This document shows positions 31,304 to 40,992 of a stretch of 64,000 nt of DNA, in pieces (the stretch's first letter is position 1; each line of letters opens with the position of its first letter). Under the pieces are notes generated by a model. It was not told the DNA's origin. It made no database searches and saw only the letters and a program-made list of their open reading frames with translations. The stretch comes from an uncultured Oleispira sp. (GTDB lineage: Bacteria > Pseudomonadota > Gammaproteobacteria > Pseudomonadales > Oceanobacteraceae). The DNA lies in assembly GCA_913061415.1 (NCBI GenBank), contig CAJXUD010000009.1:62001-126000 (forward strand), in the 5' to 3' direction. Position numbers and translations under genes: made by a program.

Positions 31304-31387
31304 ATCGACATCTATTCAAATGACACCTATTTAAATCGACACCTATTCAAGCAGCCTTTCCAGCTTATTTATTCACTCATTTATTCG
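31304..31387. repeat. Two small tandem arrays at the rhombosortase stop
   Basis: Three 15-16 bp units (ATCGACATCTATTCAA, ATGACACCTATTTAA, ATCGACACCTATTCAA) occupy 31304-31350. A 12-bp pair CTTATTTATTCA / CTCATTTATTCG (31364-31387) spans the stop codon at 31377-31379. Confidence 0.85.
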
Positions 31388-31979
31388 TTATTTTTTGCCC
31401 ATTACCTAAATTACCTTTTACATAGCCCACCAGGTAATAAGCCAGTAAAAATAACAGACCCGCAATGGTTCCAAGCAAGTGCGCATTAGCTTCCACACGA
31501 CCACCAATCATTCCGACCATGGCCATGTCATCATAAAAGGATGATTGCTCCCACAATACCTTAGCAACAATCAAAACAAGAAAGCACGCAGCAATACGAC
31601 GACTGTAAAAAGGCGATACAAACGGTGCGACCAATATCAAGCCATGCAATACACCCGACAGCCCAACATAACGCTCAAGATAATCCGCAAAGACATACAA
31701 ACCCAGACCGACAACCGATAAACACCAGACCAACAGAGTCACGCCTAGAGCATTACTTAAACTTCGGCCAGCAATATAGCCTAACAAGATGACACCCATG
31801 GCATTACCAAGCAGGTGCATAGGGGAAAGGTGAACAAAATGAGCGGTCAACACACGCCATAATTGACCGTCATCGATAGCGCTACGATCAAACATCAACC
31901 ATTGAGAACTTACAGGCTCGGCCAGCATAAGCAAAACAATCGTGACCAATAAGAAAAGATACAACACATAATCGCGCAT
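31377..31979 (-). CDS. rrtA: Rhombosortase (rhomboid-family GlyGly-CTERM processing protease)
   Basis: 200 residues, six or so hydrophobic helices. The rhomboid catalytic pair is readable: Ser108 in VGLSGVLHG and His167 in EANAHLLG, with the helper motif HLSPMHLLGN near residue 50-59. The short length and sequence fit the rhombosortase subgroup rather than GlpG. Such proteases cut the C-terminal GlyGly-CTERM anchor of secreted proteins in the inner membrane. The adjacent upstream gene on the same strand encodes a metalloprotease with exactly such a tail, which strongly supports the call. Confidence 0.9.
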   Translation of the reverse strand: MRDYVLYLFLLVTIVLLMLAEPVSSQWLMFDRSAIDDGQLWRVLTAHFVHLSPMHLLGNAMGVILLGYIAGRSLSNALGVTLLVWCLSVVGLGLYVFADYLERYVGLSGVLHGLILVAPFVSPFYSRRIAACFLVLIVAKVLWEQSSFYDDMAMVGMIGGRVEANAHLLGTIAGLLFLLAYYLVGYVKGNLGNGQKITNK

Positions 31980-32053: not shown

Positions 32054-34042
32054 TTAACGACGACCACGAATACTCAATAATAAGAAGAACAAAGCAAAAA
32101 TCGACAAAGCATTACCACCCGTAGGAACCTTACGCTCCAATCCACGAGCGCCTGTTGCCGCCGTTACACCTTGTGGCGCTTTATAATCAAAAGACTGCTC
32201 TTGGCCAGCAACCAACAAACGCTGGTTAAAATCAAAACCCGCCTTCTGGTAAGTGCCATTTGATTCAACATAGCTAAAGCCGCTTGATTGACTCTTATTA
32301 TCGATACCAAAAGGACGAGCCGAATCAGACTTTACCGCAACCTGCATATGAACCTGGCTCAAGCCACTCAGATCAATACGCTGATCAAAAGTAATACGAT
32401 TCCAACCTTTAACAACCGAATGCCCTAGGCTCGAATAAATCTCATCATCCAGCTGACCCGCTGATAGAGAAGAATACAAGGTAACCTCCAACTCAGCCGC
32501 ACCAGGGCTATAAATATCAATACCATGAGCCCAAGGTAAATCGTTATTTAACGGCAAAGTCACCAAGCTATTAACCTGCTTGCCTTTAGCCCCCCAAGAA
32601 GCCGCTACTACACTGTCGTGTCCCAAGTTATCACCCAACGTCGCATAAGGAAGGCTGATATCACCCTGAACACGCTCACCAATGCGAATATTAGAAATCT
32701 CAACACCACTCACATTACCCTGATAATCAAGACTCGAAGGAAGCGAAGAAGCACCAAAATAGTCTTGACCATAAGCATCATTGAAGACATCTAGATTATC
32801 GCCACGATTTTCTTGCTGATCCAAGTCGTTACGACCATCAGCCTCTTCAATATCAACCAACTTATGTTCAGCCACATCATTTTGAGAACCGGTAGCGCCA
32901 TAACCCACACGATCATCAATGTGCGTAATAACCAAACCCTCACCAGGCAAAGCACTATCAAGCTGAGACTGCTGACGATACTCTAATAAAAAATGCTCAC
33001 CATGACGGAATGGATCAACCCAAACACGCATTGCTTCAGGCTCATGAGTCGCACTGCCTAGATCAAACTTAACTTCATTACCAATAATATCCTGCGGCTT
33101 TAAAAACCCAGCTTTCTCTTTTGACCAAGCCATCATATGAGCAGGAGAACTACCTGAATGGCCGCCATTAGCATTCCAAGTACCTAACCCCATCAAACCC
33201 CAACGACCAATGCCATTTGACTTACCTTGACGATCATAAAGGTCAGGCAACGCAAATAACAAATGACCCATTTCATGACTAATAATACCAATGGTTGCCA
33301 AGTGATTCTGATGCTGCTCACCAAACATCGCAAAACTCGTTAATGCCACACCATCAAATGCCACACCCTGCATGTCAGACTTATGCGCCCAAACTCTTGG
33401 CTCAGGTGCAGAACTGCCACCATACGCATTTTCAAAACCTGCAACCATCAATACAATCGCCAACTCACTTGAACTCAACGTATTGTCGCCGTTTTGGTCA
33501 AAAGCTGATAAATCGATAGAATCCTTTGCTTGCGCTAATGCATCACTTACCAAGGCTTGGCTTCTTGATCCATAAGCATTACCAAAGTTTGGGTGAGCAT
33601 AAGGAAGACGAACATCAATGATACCGTCATTAACATCACCCTGAGATTCTTGAGCAGGCTCAATATGGAATTGCTGGTAAGAATTTTCTAAATAATAACG
33701 AGCCACACTGCTAGCGTCGGCAGACTTAGAGAACATTAGGTGTTCAAACTCAGCGCGAGAATGAGAGAAATCTTGATCGGTAAAAGAAACGCGCAATAAC
33801 AATACTGGCTGCACCGTTTTGTTAGTCGTTGATGCTGATAACGCTGAAAGTGTCGACGTATTCGTCGTGGCCCGAGACATACCCTTAACTTGGAAGCTCT
33901 TATTCTGGAAGCTATTAGTTTCAAAGCCCTGAGTCTGAAAAGAGTCAACCTCAAAATCATCCATTGGAATTGCAAGAGTGGTTGCATTAGCGCCAGAGGC
34001 TAGAAAAAACATAACGATGATAACGCGAGAAATAAACAACAT
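32054..34042 (-). CDS. Secreted M6-family metalloprotease with GlyGly-CTERM tail
   Basis: 662 residues. Signal peptide (SRVIIVMFFLASGANA); a propeptide with five Phe-spaced repeats; an M6/immune-inhibitor-A-like catalytic domain with zinc motif SHEMGHLLFALPDLYD; an immunoglobulin-like or carbohydrate-binding-like region; and a C-terminal sorting signal made of GG, a hydrophobic helix (LSIFALFFLLLS) and a basic end (IRGRR). This is the GlyGly-CTERM layout recognised by rhombosortase. It is expected to be exported through type II secretion and surface-processed. Encoded directly upstream of the rhombosortase gene. Confidence 0.92.
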   Translation of the reverse strand: MLFISRVIIVMFFLASGANATTLAIPMDDFEVDSFQTQGFETNSFQNKSFQVKGMSRATTNTSTLSALSASTTNKTVQPVLLLRVSFTDQDFSHSRAEFEHLMFSKSADASSVARYYLENSYQQFHIEPAQESQGDVNDGIIDVRLPYAHPNFGNAYGSRSQALVSDALAQAKDSIDLSAFDQNGDNTLSSSELAIVLMVAGFENAYGGSSAPEPRVWAHKSDMQGVAFDGVALTSFAMFGEQHQNHLATIGIISHEMGHLLFALPDLYDRQGKSNGIGRWGLMGLGTWNANGGHSGSSPAHMMAWSKEKAGFLKPQDIIGNEVKFDLGSATHEPEAMRVWVDPFRHGEHFLLEYRQQSQLDSALPGEGLVITHIDDRVGYGATGSQNDVAEHKLVDIEEADGRNDLDQQENRGDNLDVFNDAYGQDYFGASSLPSSLDYQGNVSGVEISNIRIGERVQGDISLPYATLGDNLGHDSVVAASWGAKGKQVNSLVTLPLNNDLPWAHGIDIYSPGAAELEVTLYSSLSAGQLDDEIYSSLGHSVVKGWNRITFDQRIDLSGLSQVHMQVAVKSDSARPFGIDNKSQSSGFSYVESNGTYQKAGFDFNQRLLVAGQEQSFDYKAPQGVTAATGARGLERKVPTGGNALSIFALFFLLLSIRGRR
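33881..33955 (-). repeat. Five 15-bp tandem units in the metalloprotease propeptide
   Basis: On the minus strand five consecutive 15-bp units each begin with a Phe codon and encode FEVDS, FQTQG, FETNS, FQNKS and FQVKG. Confidence 0.9.
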
Positions 34043-34239
34043 ATTGCACCTGGATCAGAGTTCTTACATCCAATCTAGCGCAACACTTGTTCATTAATCT
34101 CGCGACATTACAATTCAAAACCAGACAGCAAAATAATGACAGTCGACACTCACAGAACCGTCAAAATACCCGACTGCCAAGTTTACGTTACTCCTTTGTG
34201 TCAGAAAAAATTACATTAATTACACAGTCGCACTCATTG

Positions 34240-35214
34240 TTACGAATGCTGTTTTACAAAATCGACCACCCGTCTTTCCATCCAATAAGCATGGCGATTA
34301 TTGACTTCTATAAAGCCAACGTGGCCACCCGACGAAGGAACTTCGAGTGATAACCAAGTACTTTCACGGGCTTCGTCATACGGAAAACACGCCTCGGGTA
34401 AAAAAGGATCATTCTTCGCATTCACCAATAAAGCAGGTATACGAATATTTTTTAAGACCGGCTTACAGCTGCTCTTCTGCCAATAGTCCGCTGCATTATC
34501 AAAGCCATGGATCGGCGCGGTATAGCGATCATCAAAATGCTGAAATGTGCGAATCTGCTCATAACCTTCAGTACTGACCTCCTCAGGAAAGGTCAGCGCC
34601 TTAGCCTCAACCTTCTCTCGTAAGTCCTTTAAGAAACGCCACATGAAGATTTTGTTTCTACGCTCGGCCAAACGATACGCACTGGCGGCCAAATCACACG
34701 GCACAGAAAAGGCGACCACCGATTTAACATACTCGGGTAAATCTCGCCCTTGGCGACCAACGTGTAACAGGCTTAAATTTCCACCCATACTGAACCCCAC
34801 CAAATGAATCTGCTGGTAGCCCAATCCGTGCGCATGCTCAATTACCCGTTGCAAGTCGTCAGTTGCGCCACTGTGATAAAAACGCAGAGTCTTATTCATC
34901 TCACCCGAGCAAGAACGAAAGTTCCAAGCTAATGCATCCCAGCCCTGAGCATTTGCTTCTCGTGCAATCCCCGCAACATAAGGTCGACGTGAATGCCCTT
35001 CTAAGCCATGAGAAATAATCAGTAAGGTTTTACCAGCAATAGAAGACGATGCGCGACTCCAATCTAAGTCTAAAAAGTCACCATCATCAGTAAACAAGCG
35101 TTCGCGCTGAAAGTGCGCACAATCAATACGGCGAATTAACGTCGGAAGAATACTTTGAAGATAACCATTGGCTAATAAAAACGGCGGGCGGTAATGGCAA
35201 TCAATGACAGGCAT
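34240..35214 (-). CDS. yheT: YheT-family alpha/beta hydrolase
   Basis: 324 residues with the family block SHGLEGHSRRPYVAGIA and FRSCSGEMN, the nucleophile elbow GFSMGGNLSL, and late catalytic residues in NAKNDPFLP and SSGGHVGFIE. YheT proteins are putative esterases with no established substrate. The start ATG is 76 bases downstream of a striking 11-bp repeat array. Last gene of a leftward block that includes lepB. Confidence 0.92.
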   Translation of the reverse strand: MPVIDCHYRPPFLLANGYLQSILPTLIRRIDCAHFQRERLFTDDGDFLDLDWSRASSSIAGKTLLIISHGLEGHSRRPYVAGIAREANAQGWDALAWNFRSCSGEMNKTLRFYHSGATDDLQRVIEHAHGLGYQQIHLVGFSMGGNLSLLHVGRQGRDLPEYVKSVVAFSVPCDLAASAYRLAERRNKIFMWRFLKDLREKVEAKALTFPEEVSTEGYEQIRTFQHFDDRYTAPIHGFDNAADYWQKSSCKPVLKNIRIPALLVNAKNDPFLPEACFPYDEARESTWLSLEVPSSGGHVGFIEVNNRHAYWMERRVVDFVKQHS

Positions 35215-35289
35215 AGCACACTCTTTAGGCTTAAAAACAGAAACCTAGATTAACAGAGCGCGTAATAAGAGAACAACTTAAAGGACTAT

Positions 35290-35353
35290 CTAAAAGAGAA
35301 CTAAAAGAGAACTAAAAGAGAACTAAAAGAGAACTAAAAGAGAACTAAAAGAA
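35290..35353. repeat. 11-bp tandem array with phased A-tracts
   Basis: CTAAAAGAGAA occurs five times exactly (35290-35344), plus a partial sixth copy. Each unit carries AAAA, so the A-tracts recur every 11 bp, close to one helical turn, and would bend the DNA. It lies between the stop of the glutaredoxin-like gene and the yheT start. Confidence 0.97.
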
Positions 35354-35372
35354 TAACTAGAGGAAAAACAGA

Positions 35373-35741
35373 TTATTTATCGAAGCGGCGTTCGAGATAT
35401 TGCAGAATTTTAGTACTGGTATACAGCCAACGAGTATCTTGATCTTTACGGCCTTCAATGCGCAAACAAGGAACTCTCACCTCACCACCACCATGAATCA
35501 ACTCATTGCGGTAAGCATTCACACGACCCACATCTTTTTCTACAACCTTCAAACCCAACTTCTGACAGCGGCGCTTGATCTTAATAGACGATGGACAGGT
35601 TTTACAAAAGTACAATTGAATACGTCGAGATTCTCGGTCTAAAGAGCTTTGCTCTTCGCATGATCGCTTAATCGGTTTAACTTTAAACCAAGTATCAGCA
35701 ACCATAAAACACAAGCCTTGCATACGAACTTTAACAGACAT
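35373..35741 (-). CDS. Glutaredoxin/GST-N-like protein, second Cys missing
   Basis: 122 residues from the ATG at 35741 (the open frame extends to a TTG at 35762). One N-terminal hydrophobic stretch, then a thioredoxin-fold domain (IQLYFCKTCPSSIKIKRR, GGGEVRVPCLRIE, WLYTSTKILQYLERRF). Alignment by eye with the paralogue at 40.6 kb puts CPSS where that protein has CPFC, so the resolving cysteine of the dithiol pair is Ser here. It could act as a monothiol reductase or cluster/glutathione-binding protein. It lies downstream of lepB and the 41-residue CPFC protein. Confidence 0.85.
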   Translation of the reverse strand: MSVKVRMQGLCFMVADTWFKVKPIKRSCEEQSSLDRESRRIQLYFCKTCPSSIKIKRRCQKLGLKVVEKDVGRVNAYRNELIHGGGEVRVPCLRIEGRKDQDTRWLYTSTKILQYLERRFDK

Positions 35742-35823
35742 CAACAACAACCCAGCGGACAACGAGACAACAGGCGCGCTATTCTACGACTAATAAATTT
35801 AAAATCTAGCTCTTTCGTGAGTT

Positions 35824-35949
35824 TTATTGAGATACCGCAGGGGCCTGCTGAATTAACAGAATCAAGCCCGCCGCCATAAGGGCAGTAAAGATGAGCAATA
35901 CCCTCATGCGGCGACAAAAAGGACAGTCCTTTGCCCGTTTTTTAGCCAT
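35824..35949 (-). CDS. 41-residue membrane protein with CPFC motif, coupled to lepB
   Basis: A short frame from ATG 35949 to TAA 35824. The ATG is two bases after the lepB stop (TAA-TT-ATG), so translation is probably coupled. The protein has a basic N terminus (MAKKRAKD), then CPFCRRM, then a single hydrophobic helix (VLLIFTALMAAGLILLI). The CPFC is the same motif as in the glutaredoxin-like paralogue at 40.6 kb, and the next gene in this direction is another glutaredoxin-like protein. I do not recognise the family. The call rests on the start position, composition and spacing. Confidence 0.6.
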   Translation of the reverse strand: MAKKRAKDCPFCRRMRVLLIFTALMAAGLILLIQQAPAVSQ

Positions 35950-35951
35950 AA

Positions 35952-36782
35952 TTATTGAATCGCCTTGTTACGCGAAAATGAAGGCAAACTAGACACTTGA
36001 TCCCAATGCATCCATACCGCTTCGGCTTTACCCACAATATTTTCAGCAGGTACAAAAGGCATAACCTCACCCGTTGCAGCATTGCGCCACAAGCGACTGT
36101 CAGAACTACGTCCGCGGTTATCCCCCATCATAAAGTAATGACCTTCAGGCACGGTCCATTCACCTTCAGGGCCAAAGTTAGCCCCAGGCGTCCACTGCAC
36201 TTCATGTGCGCCAGTATCTAATGTTTCTTCCAACAAATACTTCACAGGGCGGTGCTTTGGCTCAGCAGAGGTAATCTCAATACTCTTTTCTTCACCATTA
36301 ATAATCAGCTGCCCACCTTTATACACAACATGATCGCCTGGCAAACCAATCACACGCTTAATAAAGTAACGCTTATCGTGCGGTGGAAAGAAAACCATCA
36401 CATCCCCGCGTTCAGGCTCATTAATGCCGACCAATAAATTGCGGAAAACAGGCATACGCAAGCCGTAATGAAACTTACTCACCAAAATGAAATCGCCTTT
36501 CACTAAAGTCGACTCCATAGAACCCGATGGAATCTGAAAGGGCTCTGCGATAAAAGAACGCAATACAAATACCACAACCAATACCGGAAAAAACGACTTA
36601 GATTGCTCAATCCACATAGGCTCTTTCGCAGCAGACTGCAAAGATTGCTTATCCGCCCCTTGGCCATCCAACAAATTAATACGCGCTAAACGTCTTGGTA
36701 AAAAATAAAACTTATCCGCAAGAGCAACCAAGCCCGTTACAACCGTAAGTACCATCAAGATCAAAGGAAAATCAATATCCAT
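35952..36782 (-). CDS. lepB: Signal peptidase I LepB
   Basis: 276 residues. An N-terminal membrane helix, a cytoplasmic loop, a second helix (FFPVLVVVFVLRSFIAEPF) and a periplasmic catalytic domain. Catalytic Ser88 lies in PSGSMESTL and catalytic Lys142 in YFIKRVIGLPGD; MGDNRGRSSDSR is the conserved box E. It removes signal peptides from exported proteins, of which this window encodes several. In a leftward block with dgt upstream, though a hairpin lies between. Confidence 0.96.
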   Translation of the reverse strand: MDIDFPLILMVLTVVTGLVALADKFYFLPRRLARINLLDGQGADKQSLQSAAKEPMWIEQSKSFFPVLVVVFVLRSFIAEPFQIPSGSMESTLVKGDFILVSKFHYGLRMPVFRNLLVGINEPERGDVMVFFPPHDKRYFIKRVIGLPGDHVVYKGGQLIINGEEKSIEITSAEPKHRPVKYLLEETLDTGAHEVQWTPGANFGPEGEWTVPEGHYFMMGDNRGRSSDSRLWRNAATGEVMPFVPAENIVGKAEAVWMHWDQVSSLPSFSRNKAIQ

Positions 36783-36848
36783 AATTTATTATTCAAATCA
36801 CTTCATTAAAGAAAAGGGGAATAACATCTGTTATTCATTCATTATCAT

Positions 36849-36876
36849 TGCGTGGCATTGTAACCACAGCCACGCA
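36849..36876. other. TGCGTGGC/GCCACGCA hairpin between dgt and lepB
   Basis: A perfect 8-bp inverted repeat with a 12-base loop lies just after the dgt stop. There is no T run, so it may be a processing or partial-termination hairpin. Confidence 0.4.
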
Positions 36877-36882
36877 GCAAGG

Positions 36883-38238
36883 CTAGCGCCCAGCAGGACT
36901 ATAACCCGAGAACTGCTGCGCAATATCCGCCGCGTAGTTATCCGTCATACCCCCCACATAATCAAGTACCCGCATATAGGCCTCATACAATGTCCAATCA
37001 GGCTTAGGAGCACTTGCCCCCATCATTTCTAATACACGGCTATTTTTAAACGTAGAACACCCGGTCTCAATCAACTCTTTGGCTGCTTCTAAAAACGCCG
37101 TCAACAAATTCGCCAAGGTCGAATAAGCCCCTACTTCAATCGCCGTTTTACGCGGGTCTTTAAAAATACGCTCTCGCGCCAACGACTTCGCGCCGTTAAT
37201 CGCCGCACGCACAACCTCAGGACAATGGTCAGATAACTCCCCCACCAGCGTGCCCGTCATAATCTGCTCTTCGTTATCTAAAAATGCCTGACTCGCCGCC
37301 GCCACTAAGCGCTCCATCGCCTTACCCCGTAACATCGACAGTCTTCGTCGCTGATTATCAGCACTGGCTAAACGACCCTGATAGCTTTCCCACTTATCCG
37401 CTAGCAAAGGTTTTAGAATATTCTCGACTTCAGAGTAATTCAAGATTCCCATTTCGATGCCATCTTCTAAATCGATCAAGCCATAACAAATATCATCGGC
37501 TATCTCCATTAAGTACACCAAAGGGTGACGGCACCACTTATTCTTTGCCTGTGGAATCAAGCCCAACGTCGTCGCAAGACTGTTTAAAATTTCTAGCTCG
37601 CTTTGGAAACAACCAAATTTATGCGCCTTATTACCCGTCGTTGCGGCATGCTCTACTGACCAAGGATACTTAACAAACGTTCCTAGCGTTGCCTGAGTTA
37701 AGCGCATACCGCCACTAAAACGATGATACTCAACCTGAGTAACAATTCGAAACCCCTGAGCATTACCTTCAAAAGTCTGCAAATCGGCCTTTTCTAAATC
37801 GGACAAACCAGTTAGCAAATAAGCATTTTGATCATCTTGAAACCAATGACGAATCGCATCTTCACCCGTATGCCCATAAGGCGGATTACCAATATCATGC
37901 GCCAAACACGCCGCTTGCAAAATGGCCCCAACATCCGCCGCAGTAATTTCGTCAGGAAAAGGCACCTTACCTTTGGCTTTCAATCCTTCTGCCACTCGAT
38001 AGCCCAAACTACGACCCACACAACTCACTTCCAAACTGTGCGTTAAGCGACTGTGTACATGATCGTTTTCCGATAACGGATGAACCTGAGTTTTACGATC
38101 CAAACGACGAAAGGCGCTGGAAAATACAATACGATCTTGATCTTTATGAAAAGGCGAACGCCCTTCTTCATGATATCGAGTCGTCTCGCCAATGCGTAAC
38201 GGCTGCAATAACTTTGTCCAATCCATTGCTTCTATCAA
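36883..38238 (-). CDS. dgt: dGTP triphosphohydrolase-like protein
   Basis: 451 residues of the HD superfamily. Metal-binding motifs: THSLEVSCVGRSL after HVHSRL, CLAHDIGNPPYGHTGEDAI, and MEIADDICYGLIDLEDG. The block ETTRYHEEGRSPFHKDQDRI is typical of the long dGTPase-like subgroup that includes EF1143-type enzymes. It hydrolyses dNTPs to nucleoside and triphosphate; the exact specificity is not visible. The start is TTG 38238, with AGGAG seven bases upstream; the ATG four codons later is too far from it. Confidence 0.93.
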   Translation of the reverse strand: MIEAMDWTKLLQPLRIGETTRYHEEGRSPFHKDQDRIVFSSAFRRLDRKTQVHPLSENDHVHSRLTHSLEVSCVGRSLGYRVAEGLKAKGKVPFPDEITAADVGAILQAACLAHDIGNPPYGHTGEDAIRHWFQDDQNAYLLTGLSDLEKADLQTFEGNAQGFRIVTQVEYHRFSGGMRLTQATLGTFVKYPWSVEHAATTGNKAHKFGCFQSELEILNSLATTLGLIPQAKNKWCRHPLVYLMEIADDICYGLIDLEDGIEMGILNYSEVENILKPLLADKWESYQGRLASADNQRRRLSMLRGKAMERLVAAASQAFLDNEEQIMTGTLVGELSDHCPEVVRAAINGAKSLARERIFKDPRKTAIEVGAYSTLANLLTAFLEAAKELIETGCSTFKNSRVLEMMGASAPKPDWTLYEAYMRVLDYVGGMTDNYAADIAQQFSGYSPAGR

Positions 38239-38282
38239 AGCTAAACTCCTATAACGACAACACTACAAAATCCGACTTACAG

Positions 38283-39182
38283 CTAAACAAAATCCGACTT
38301 ACGACGATATTTATGCGCGGGGTAACTGCCCAATATACGCACAGTCTTAGCAAAAAACTCGAGTTCTAATAACGCATTCTTCATACGCTGCTGATTTGGG
38401 TGTCCCGACAGATCAATATGAAAATGACTCGCCTCCATCGTACCGCCATCCATATAACTTTCCAGCTTAATCATATTCACGCCATTCGTCGCAAAACCAC
38501 CCAATGCTTTATACAATGCCGCAGGTATATGACGAACAGTAAAGAGTACGCTGGTAATATAGTCTTTCTGAGCATCATACTCTTCTATCCCAGCTTCTAG
38601 CCCAGCCTCTTTTGCCAAAACAATAAAACGCGTGGTATTACCACTCACATCTTGAAAATTCTCAGCGACGACATTCAAGCCATAAAGCTCAGCCGCCAAC
38701 GTTGAAGCAATCGCACCCTGCTGGCGATAAGACACCTCACCCTCAAGCAAATTAGGCTTCTGAGTCGCTAGCTGTTTCGCCGAAAGCGCCGTATCGGTCG
38801 CCGCAATGGCCTTAATATTATGGTCATTTAAACGATGAAAACACTGAGCCAACGCCTGGGGATGAGACGAAACCGTTTTTATATCTTCAAGCGCAACACC
38901 TGGCAGCGCTAACAAACAATGATTAACCGGTTCAAAATGCTCGCCCACAATTTGTAAATGGGTCTTAGGCAATAACCGATAGATCTCTTCGACCCGCCCC
39001 GCTGTTGAATTCTCTAAAGGAATCATCGCAAATTGGGCTTTATCCTCTTCGACCATCAAGATCGCCGTTCGAAAATCCTCGCAGGCCACAGATTTATATT
39101 CAGGAAATACCGTATTACACGACAAATGAGAATAAGCCCCCTCAACGCCCTGATAAGCCACTAAAACCGGTACTGTCGTCAC
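38283..39182 (-). CDS. pheA: Prephenate dehydratase (monofunctional, ACT-regulated)
   Basis: 299 residues. The catalytic domain starts VAYQGVEGAYSHLS, has IPLENSTAGRVEEIYRLL, and the active-site Thr-Arg-Phe in GNTTRFIVL. An ACT domain follows (ALYKALGGFATNGVNMIKLES), which is expected to bind phenylalanine for feedback control. There is no chorismate mutase domain, so this differs from the E. coli P-protein and resembles PheC-like or standalone enzymes. Catalyses prephenate to phenylpyruvate. First gene of the leftward block. Confidence 0.93.
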   Translation of the reverse strand: MTTVPVLVAYQGVEGAYSHLSCNTVFPEYKSVACEDFRTAILMVEEDKAQFAMIPLENSTAGRVEEIYRLLPKTHLQIVGEHFEPVNHCLLALPGVALEDIKTVSSHPQALAQCFHRLNDHNIKAIAATDTALSAKQLATQKPNLLEGEVSYRQQGAIASTLAAELYGLNVVAENFQDVSGNTTRFIVLAKEAGLEAGIEEYDAQKDYITSVLFTVRHIPAALYKALGGFATNGVNMIKLESYMDGGTMEASHFHIDLSGHPNQQRMKNALLELEFFAKTVRILGSYPAHKYRRKSDFV

Positions 39183-40602: not shown

Positions 40603-40992
40603 TTATACTGCGCTGGTCTCAGCATCTGCTGCGCCAAAACGCTGCTCTAGATAGTTGATGATGTCACCAGATTCATACATCCAACGGACTTCGCCATTGT
40701 CTTCTTCAATTCTTAGGCAAGGTACTTTTAGCTGGCCGCCGCCGTTTACTAATTCTTCTTTCGCTTGTTCGCTGCGTTTCGCATCGCGTGTTTCAATATT
40801 TAAGCCGTTGCGTTTCATGGCGCGGCGTACTTTTACGCAGAATGGGCAGGCTGCATATTGGTATAACGCGAGTTTTTGAGTCTGAGCATCAACTTCTGCT
40901 TGTTCTGTGGCTTCACGTTTGATGCTTTTTGGCGTGAATACCCAGTTAAAAAACAAGATTAAGGCGCCTAATATCGCTCGAACTATAAACAT
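40603..40992 (-). CDS. Glutaredoxin/GST-N-like membrane-anchored protein
   Basis: 129 residues: an N-terminal hydrophobic helix (IVRAILGALILFFNWVF), a short charged linker, then a thioredoxin-fold domain with dithiol motif YAACPFCVKVRRAM, GGGQLKVPCLRIE, and WMYESGDIINYLEQRFG. It is the paralogue of the gene at 35.4 kb and keeps both cysteines. The anchor suggests action at the cytoplasmic face of the inner membrane. Partner unknown. Confidence 0.9.
   Translation of the reverse strand: MFIVRAILGALILFFNWVFTPKSIKREATEQAEVDAQTQKLALYQYAACPFCVKVRRAMKRNGLNIETRDAKRSEQAKEELVNGGGQLKVPCLRIEEDNGEVRWMYESGDIINYLEQRFGAADAETSAV

Follow-up and report, generated by a model that had tools for sequence, protein, structure and literature searches.

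We analyzed a 64,000-nucleotide stretch of DNA (hereafter, the window) of the contig CAJXUD010000009.1 from an uncultured Oleispira sp. and followed up a small open reading frame on its minus strand, denoted here gene X, with its product denoted protein X (41 amino acids, MAKKRAKDCPFCRRMRVLLIFTALMAAGLILLIQQAPAVSQ). The frame lies where the sequence-only reading had put it, with two bases separating the stop codon of lepB from the ATG of gene X. The genes considered below are the following:

31377-31979, minus strand: rhombosortase gene (TIGR03902, 133.8 bits against a cut-off of 84)
32054-34042, minus strand: M6-family metalloprotease gene (TIGR03296, 163.5 against a cut-off of 110.8)
34240-35214, minus strand: alpha/beta hydrolase gene, which we take to be YheT-like (NCBIfam PRK10985.1, E 4.3e-66, below the cut-off of that model)
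35373-35741, minus strand: glutaredoxin/GST_N-like gene, 82 bases downstream of gene X, with the ATG placed by alignment and the active site CPSS
35824-35949, minus strand: gene X, ATG start, encoding a predicted 41-residue bitopic membrane protein with KKRAKDCPFCRRMR followed by a single helix
35902-35925, minus strand: codons of C9 to R16 (CPFCRRMR) within gene X, the CxxC-x3-R element at the start of the helix (translation checked)
35952-36782, minus strand: lepB, signal peptidase I, directly upstream of gene X (PF10502, E 7.7e-50; TIGR02227, E 2.7e-41)
36883-38238, minus strand: dgt, dGTP triphosphohydrolase, upstream of lepB
40603-40992, minus strand: second glutaredoxin-like gene, a paralogue of 35373-35741, with the active site CPFC and a hydrophobic N-terminal stretch

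The two glutaredoxin-like paralogues are located about 5 kb apart. A perfect tandem array, 5.7 copies of the 11-base unit CTAAAAGAGAA, occupies positions 35290-35352, between the first of these genes and the hydrolase gene. Elsewhere in the window, the rhombosortase gene is found just downstream of the gene for the M6-family metalloprotease, at whose C-terminus a hydrophobic segment is accompanied by the tail RGRR; the two are likely a sorting pair.

In the searches described below, labels starting with G, f, or g are the groupings of the search tool, and f1 is the family to which the window belongs. A LepB search of relatives produced a match in 54 of 55 genomes, and the 30 loci returned were read. 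Of these 30 own-family loci, 27 have a short CxxC frame behind lepB and on its strand; measured from the end of the lepB stop codon, the longest start of this frame ranges from 13 bases upstream to 110 bases downstream. The exceptions, without an intact gene X, are G003, G026, and G004, the assembly of the last being of low quality and rich in N. The sequence-only reading had proposed precisely such a search behind lepB and had named the lack of conservation of the frame or its motif as fatal to the case; with three later family loci that carry gene X (G014, G019, and G008), the frame was found in 30 of 33 loci, and both cysteines are kept in the relatives. Among the named f1 loci that were fetched via alignment of the glutaredoxin-like gene, with labels including Oleispira, Thalassolituus, Oceanobacter, Bacterioplanes, and Bermanella, gene X adjoins lepB in 25 of 29, the remaining four being L090, L092, L097, and L105.

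Purifying selection acts on gene X. Across four genomes of the genus, mismatches are distributed over the three codon positions as 50/13/92 and dN/dS is 0.07, and pN/pS is 0.18-0.45 in all six groups tested, where pairs within one group are not independent of each other. Gene X is very short and is missing from some relatives, both of which could point to a spurious or decaying reading frame; however, selection, the invariant motif, and the presence in every one of the 48 genomes of family f27 make this explanation barely credible, and gene X is almost certainly a real gene. The possibility that the site is an RNA element or a terminator instead of a gene was considered as well and rejected: no Rfam family passed the threshold across positions 34000-38500, and the promoter and terminator scan stayed at the level of shuffled sequence (1 versus 2.7 expected; 2 versus 2.1 expected). 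Start codons were picked mechanically or by eye, and the N-terminal lengths of the protein X sequences are accordingly uncertain.

Profile searches show how far gene X extends. There is one match per genome in all 48 genomes of f27 and one per genome in 16 of the 22 genomes of f6. In the own family, the profile matches 38 of 44 genomes, a figure that includes the match in G1069 located in a 171-aa frame that is probably DsbB; a second match in G002 overlaps the DsbB of that genome, and gene X of G008 escaped the profile but was recognized when the locus was read. In the order as a whole, 69 of 390 genomes match at E values up to 0.002, of which 64 are not flagged as doubtful; the matches in G161, G404, G071, G274, and G206 are in frames of at least 107 aa, one of them with a stop, and are probably due to chance. 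The 8 matches among 369 genomes of the class comprise the window's own genome, three f112 genomes, two weak short frames, and two long frames (G458 and G700), the last two again probably chance hits, and in the phylum 4 of 299 genomes match. Part of the order, f27, f6, and own-family matches were read as sequence. Gene X thus belongs chiefly to this order, with a few relatives beyond it, and the bacteria that carry it are mostly marine.

The conservation of protein X is concentrated in three residues. All 25 own-family sequences share C9, C12, and R16 at a mean column identity of 35%, and the same three columns show no variation in 40 of 40 sequences from nine families, both sets having been hand-chosen from lepB-locus frames and from profile hits; the lepB-locus frames had been selected on CxxC or length, not on the arginine. 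A further set of 70 sequences was extracted by the C..C...R pattern, so that these letters are invariant in it by construction. The commonest form is KKPCxxCxxxRW, followed by approximately 17 hydrophobic positions and then often N, Q, or D; the W is present in 54 of the 70 sequences and a P precedes the first cysteine in 45, whereas the first residue between the cysteines is K or R in 42 and P in 21. Thus, CPFC, which had been taken for the kept motif in the sequence-only reading, is the variant of this genus; other genera have CKFC, CRFC, CKRC, or CPYC, and the family keeps CxxC-x3-R. The interpretation of CPFC as a glutaredoxin site was rejected because neither its P nor its F is conserved.

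Protein X of the window contains two cysteines only. AlphaFold2 predicts a single helix spanning residues 10-39 (mean pLDDT 77.1, 14 residues at 90 or above, pTM 0.43), in agreement with the one hydrophobic membrane helix initially read from the sequence. The net charge of the N-terminal side exceeds that of the C-terminal side in 70 of 70 protein X sequences (+6 versus 0 in the window). Under the positive-inside rule, the more positive flank of a membrane protein stays in the cytoplasm, so the cysteines are predicted to be cytoplasmic; this charge-based N-in topology is very likely. By prediction, protein X has the properties of small bitopic inner-membrane proteins, namely, fewer than about 60 amino acids, one hydrophobic helix, and a basic cytosolic end.

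The neighborhood of gene X was compared by tblastn with the window's four proteins (LepB, glutaredoxin-like, YheT-like, and Dgt). Within the fetched stretches of the 29 named f1 loci, lepB and the glutaredoxin-like gene are present in all 29, the YheT-like gene in 13, and dgt in 21. Outside f1, lepB was detected near gene X in none of the 48 loci. The f6 loci have the YheT-like gene near gene X in 12 of 14 cases and the glutaredoxin-like gene in one (G115); a dgt relative lies upstream of gene X in 3 of 3 f38 loci; and none of the four neighbors was detected in 13 f27, 5 f47, 3 f29, 5 f46/45/17, and 5 f112-and-other loci. Because dgt and the YheT-like gene flank gene X in f1 and each recurs next to it elsewhere, an ancestral dgt ... 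X ... yheT neighborhood is likely. Elsewhere, gene X has secB, a DUF2489-like gene with the YheT-like hydrolase, dgt with SUI1, tmcA, or PhnA as neighbors (some of these identified by eye), and there is no partner gene that stays constant across families.

By eye, secB was found just upstream of gene X in 12 of 13 f27 loci, along with an upstream grxC that differs from the glutaredoxin-like gene of f1. In f47 (L139, L142 to L145), genes identified by eye as tmcA, a DUF3833-like lipoprotein, or dusC are located near gene X in some loci, and in f29 (L124, L131, and L141), PhnA and a SulP transporter were identified there in the same way. All three f112 loci (L173, L174, and L175, from G604, G707, and G473) contain opposite-strand genes near gene X that by eye resemble DsrC/TusE, and two of the three also contain genes that resemble sulfur-relay subunits. 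The thiol-related neighbors, that is, the glutaredoxin-like gene in f1 and one f6 genome, grxC in f27, and the DsrC-like genes in f112, are suggestive but may reflect chance.

Because lepB is absent from the vicinity of gene X in all 48 loci outside f1, protein X very probably has no LepB-specific role; LepB partnership was accordingly rejected as the main reading. The proposal of a partner of the secretion or redox system, put forward from the window alone, holds with respect to the shared strand with lepB, but the tie to secretion is weak.

The gene that follows gene X is indeed glutaredoxin-like and has lost one motif cysteine, with CPSS where its paralogue at 40603-40992 reads CPFC. Its product scores above the cut-offs of two Pfam models, Glutaredoxin and GST_N_3, and its sequence profile matches the solved glutaredoxin 7c12 (E 6e-6). 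The predicted model has a glutaredoxin/GST-like order of elements (mean pLDDT 79.1, pTM 0.71), and GST and glutaredoxin structures come out on top in a fold search, none at E 0.001 or better. The gene is present in 30 of 30 own-family lepB loci, but in a degenerate form: the copies mostly have CPxS or CASS (CPYS in G019, CPYC in G008), and the active-site cysteine is gone from those of G023, G027, and G031, while protein X of the same genomes keeps both of its own. Outside f1, the 12 readable glutaredoxin-like loci are of the CPFC or CPYC type, and a further one, in G115, has CFAC.

These observations bear on the earlier suggestion that protein X partners LepB or the glutaredoxin-like protein, for example, by contributing the thiol now missing from the CPSS protein. 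The order lepB, gene X, glutaredoxin-like gene in 27 of 30 loci agrees with this suggestion, as do the glutaredoxin-like gene that follows gene X in the f6 genome G115 and the detection of a relative somewhere in 16 of 20 X-carrying genomes tested, albeit of the CPFC and CPYC types outside f1. However, all three own-family lepB loci that lack an intact gene X (those of G003, G026, and G004, the last poorly assembled) retain the glutaredoxin-like gene, and outside f1, gene X occurs without such a gene nearby in 47 of 48 loci and without lepB in all 48. We therefore consider a partnership of this kind quite unlikely; some tie between protein X and the glutaredoxin-like neighbor is possible.

The only Pfam family touched by many members of the protein X family is DsbB (PF02600), with 17 of 40 members matching at E values up to 0.1 (best, 6.9e-5). 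When 17 distinct members were scored singly, one reached 23.7 bits and one equaled the cut-off of 22.1; protein X of the window has no hit to PF02600. The matches always fall near positions 28-53 of the 148-position profile, about 25 positions that correspond to the CxxC and the start of the second transmembrane helix (TM2). The NCBIfam DsbB scores of five members do not exceed 23.0 against a cut-off of 138. Profile-profile comparison of protein X with DsbB gives a score of 26.5 (P 4.8e-5, probability 68); the probability is 48 when f27 is left out and 52 when f1 is the only family used. With the helix columns shuffled and the motif kept, the real score was equaled or beaten in 26 of 100 trials, whereas with the motif columns shuffled it was reached in 0 of 100, so the match rests on the motif (PCxxCxxxR before a helix). 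Full-length DsbB is retained in 17 of 18 relatives searched, and therefore protein X is not a stand-in for it; at the corresponding site, 15 of 17 DsbB proteins read from relatives have PCPLC or PCPMC followed by xxQR, one has PCSMCVFQR, and one PCELCVYVR. A DsbB remnant was likewise rejected, the likeness not extending beyond CxxC-x3-R and the full protein being present alongside.

By these comparisons, protein X does not qualify as a member of the DsbB family, although it might work alike. DsbB has four transmembrane helices, and the cysteines of the E. coli protein are numbered C41 and C44. Protein X shares with the start of TM2 of DsbB the P-C-x-x-C-x3-R followed immediately by a membrane helix; unlike DsbB, it has one helix and one cysteine pair, so that three of the four helices and the second pair are missing, and its predicted topology is inverted, with the cysteines cytoplasmic by charge rather than periplasmic. 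A miniature DsbB-like thiol-quinone element that faces the cytosol and reads or uses the quinone pool, in the manner of C41-x2-C44-x3-R48, would account for the PF02600 hits, including the member over the cut-off and the one equal to it, for the profile-profile match, and for the detection of DsbB itself by the protein X profile in G002. Arg48 of E. coli DsbB is proposed to take part in ubiquinone binding (PMC6752827). Nevertheless, with the shuffle controls, the opposite predicted topology, the missing helices and cysteine pair, the lack of a PF02600 hit for the window protein, and NCBIfam scores far under the cut-off, we regard such an element as unlikely. Its fuller form, in which proteins of roughly 30-60 residues would show a DsbB-type CxxC-x3-R to the cytosol as a minimal thiol-to-quinone relay or quinone-pool sensor, encoded by a one-copy gene beside a normal DsbB through whole families, is a long shot.

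No dedicated model in Pfam, NCBIfam, or PHROGs was matched over the cut-off (E under 0.001 for PHROGs) with 40 members scanned per library, the best E values apart from the DsbB hits being 0.0019, 0.018, and 0.013, respectively. Hits to GST_N_3 are sub-threshold only (E 0.085 for the window protein; 3 of 40 members). A sequence search of solved structures gave no relative of protein X (best E 7.3), and a literature search at the level of titles and abstract openings found no paper on the family.

The thiols are probably the working part of protein X, whether in redox or in metal chemistry, with redox somewhat likelier. In the metal version, two chains of protein X, or protein X and a partner, would join two CxxC pairs at the membrane surface into a clasp holding Zn or an Fe-S cluster, and the role of protein X would be that of a scaffold or an assembly factor, not of a redox protein. 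One invariant CxxC per chain and the variable, often basic residues between the cysteines suit such a clasp, but a Cys4 metal site needs no invariant arginine at a fixed distance, and on balance we find the clasp rather unlikely.

Tentatively, we favor the view that gene X is inherited vertically and encodes a small bitopic protein of the inner membrane with a cytosol-facing dithiol that serves as a thiol switch or relay. The basic N-terminus would lie in the cytoplasm and the single helix would cross the inner membrane, placing the CxxC and the arginine four residues on at the cytosolic membrane surface, in the first turns of the helix. There, the two thiols would act as the switch or relay, perhaps with the dithiol shared between two copies of protein X or with a membrane partner, and R16 would hold a thiolate or a membrane cofactor. 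The position of gene X behind lepB in f1 would serve its expression and not an action on LepB. The thiol chemistry, the role of the arginine, the partner, and a shared transcript are the elements of this mechanism that we infer; against it stand the variable residues between the cysteines, which suit a metal site too, the changing set of neighbors with no fixed partner, and the absence of gene X from some genomes (G003, G026, and others). The original proposal of a small thiol- or metal-binding membrane protein survives as far as the conserved gene, both cysteines, and the predicted helix are concerned, but not in the secretion partnership.

Gene X, which occurs in every one of the 48 f27 genomes and in many genomes of several further families and whose product keeps three residues fixed, is very probably functional, yet it has no model of its own in Pfam, NCBIfam, or PHROGs. 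If the thiols act at the cytosolic face of the membrane, thiol chemistry and the membrane would be joined here by very little protein, small enough for full mutational testing. The family can also serve as a yardstick for small-gene annotation.

Compared with known systems, some members of the family carry the CPFC or CPYC of the glutaredoxin CPxC site (PF00462, PF13417), likewise with the CxxC at a helix start; protein X, however, is a single helix without the thioredoxin fold, has no Pfam or NCBIfam glutaredoxin hit over the cut-off, and has the P in 21 of 70 sequences only. In size, protein X resembles the small membrane subunits of the CydX type (PMC4325964), which are shorter than 50 residues and hard to annotate. 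CydX belongs to one enzyme complex, whereas protein X lacks a constant partner gene and carries the CxxC-x3-R.
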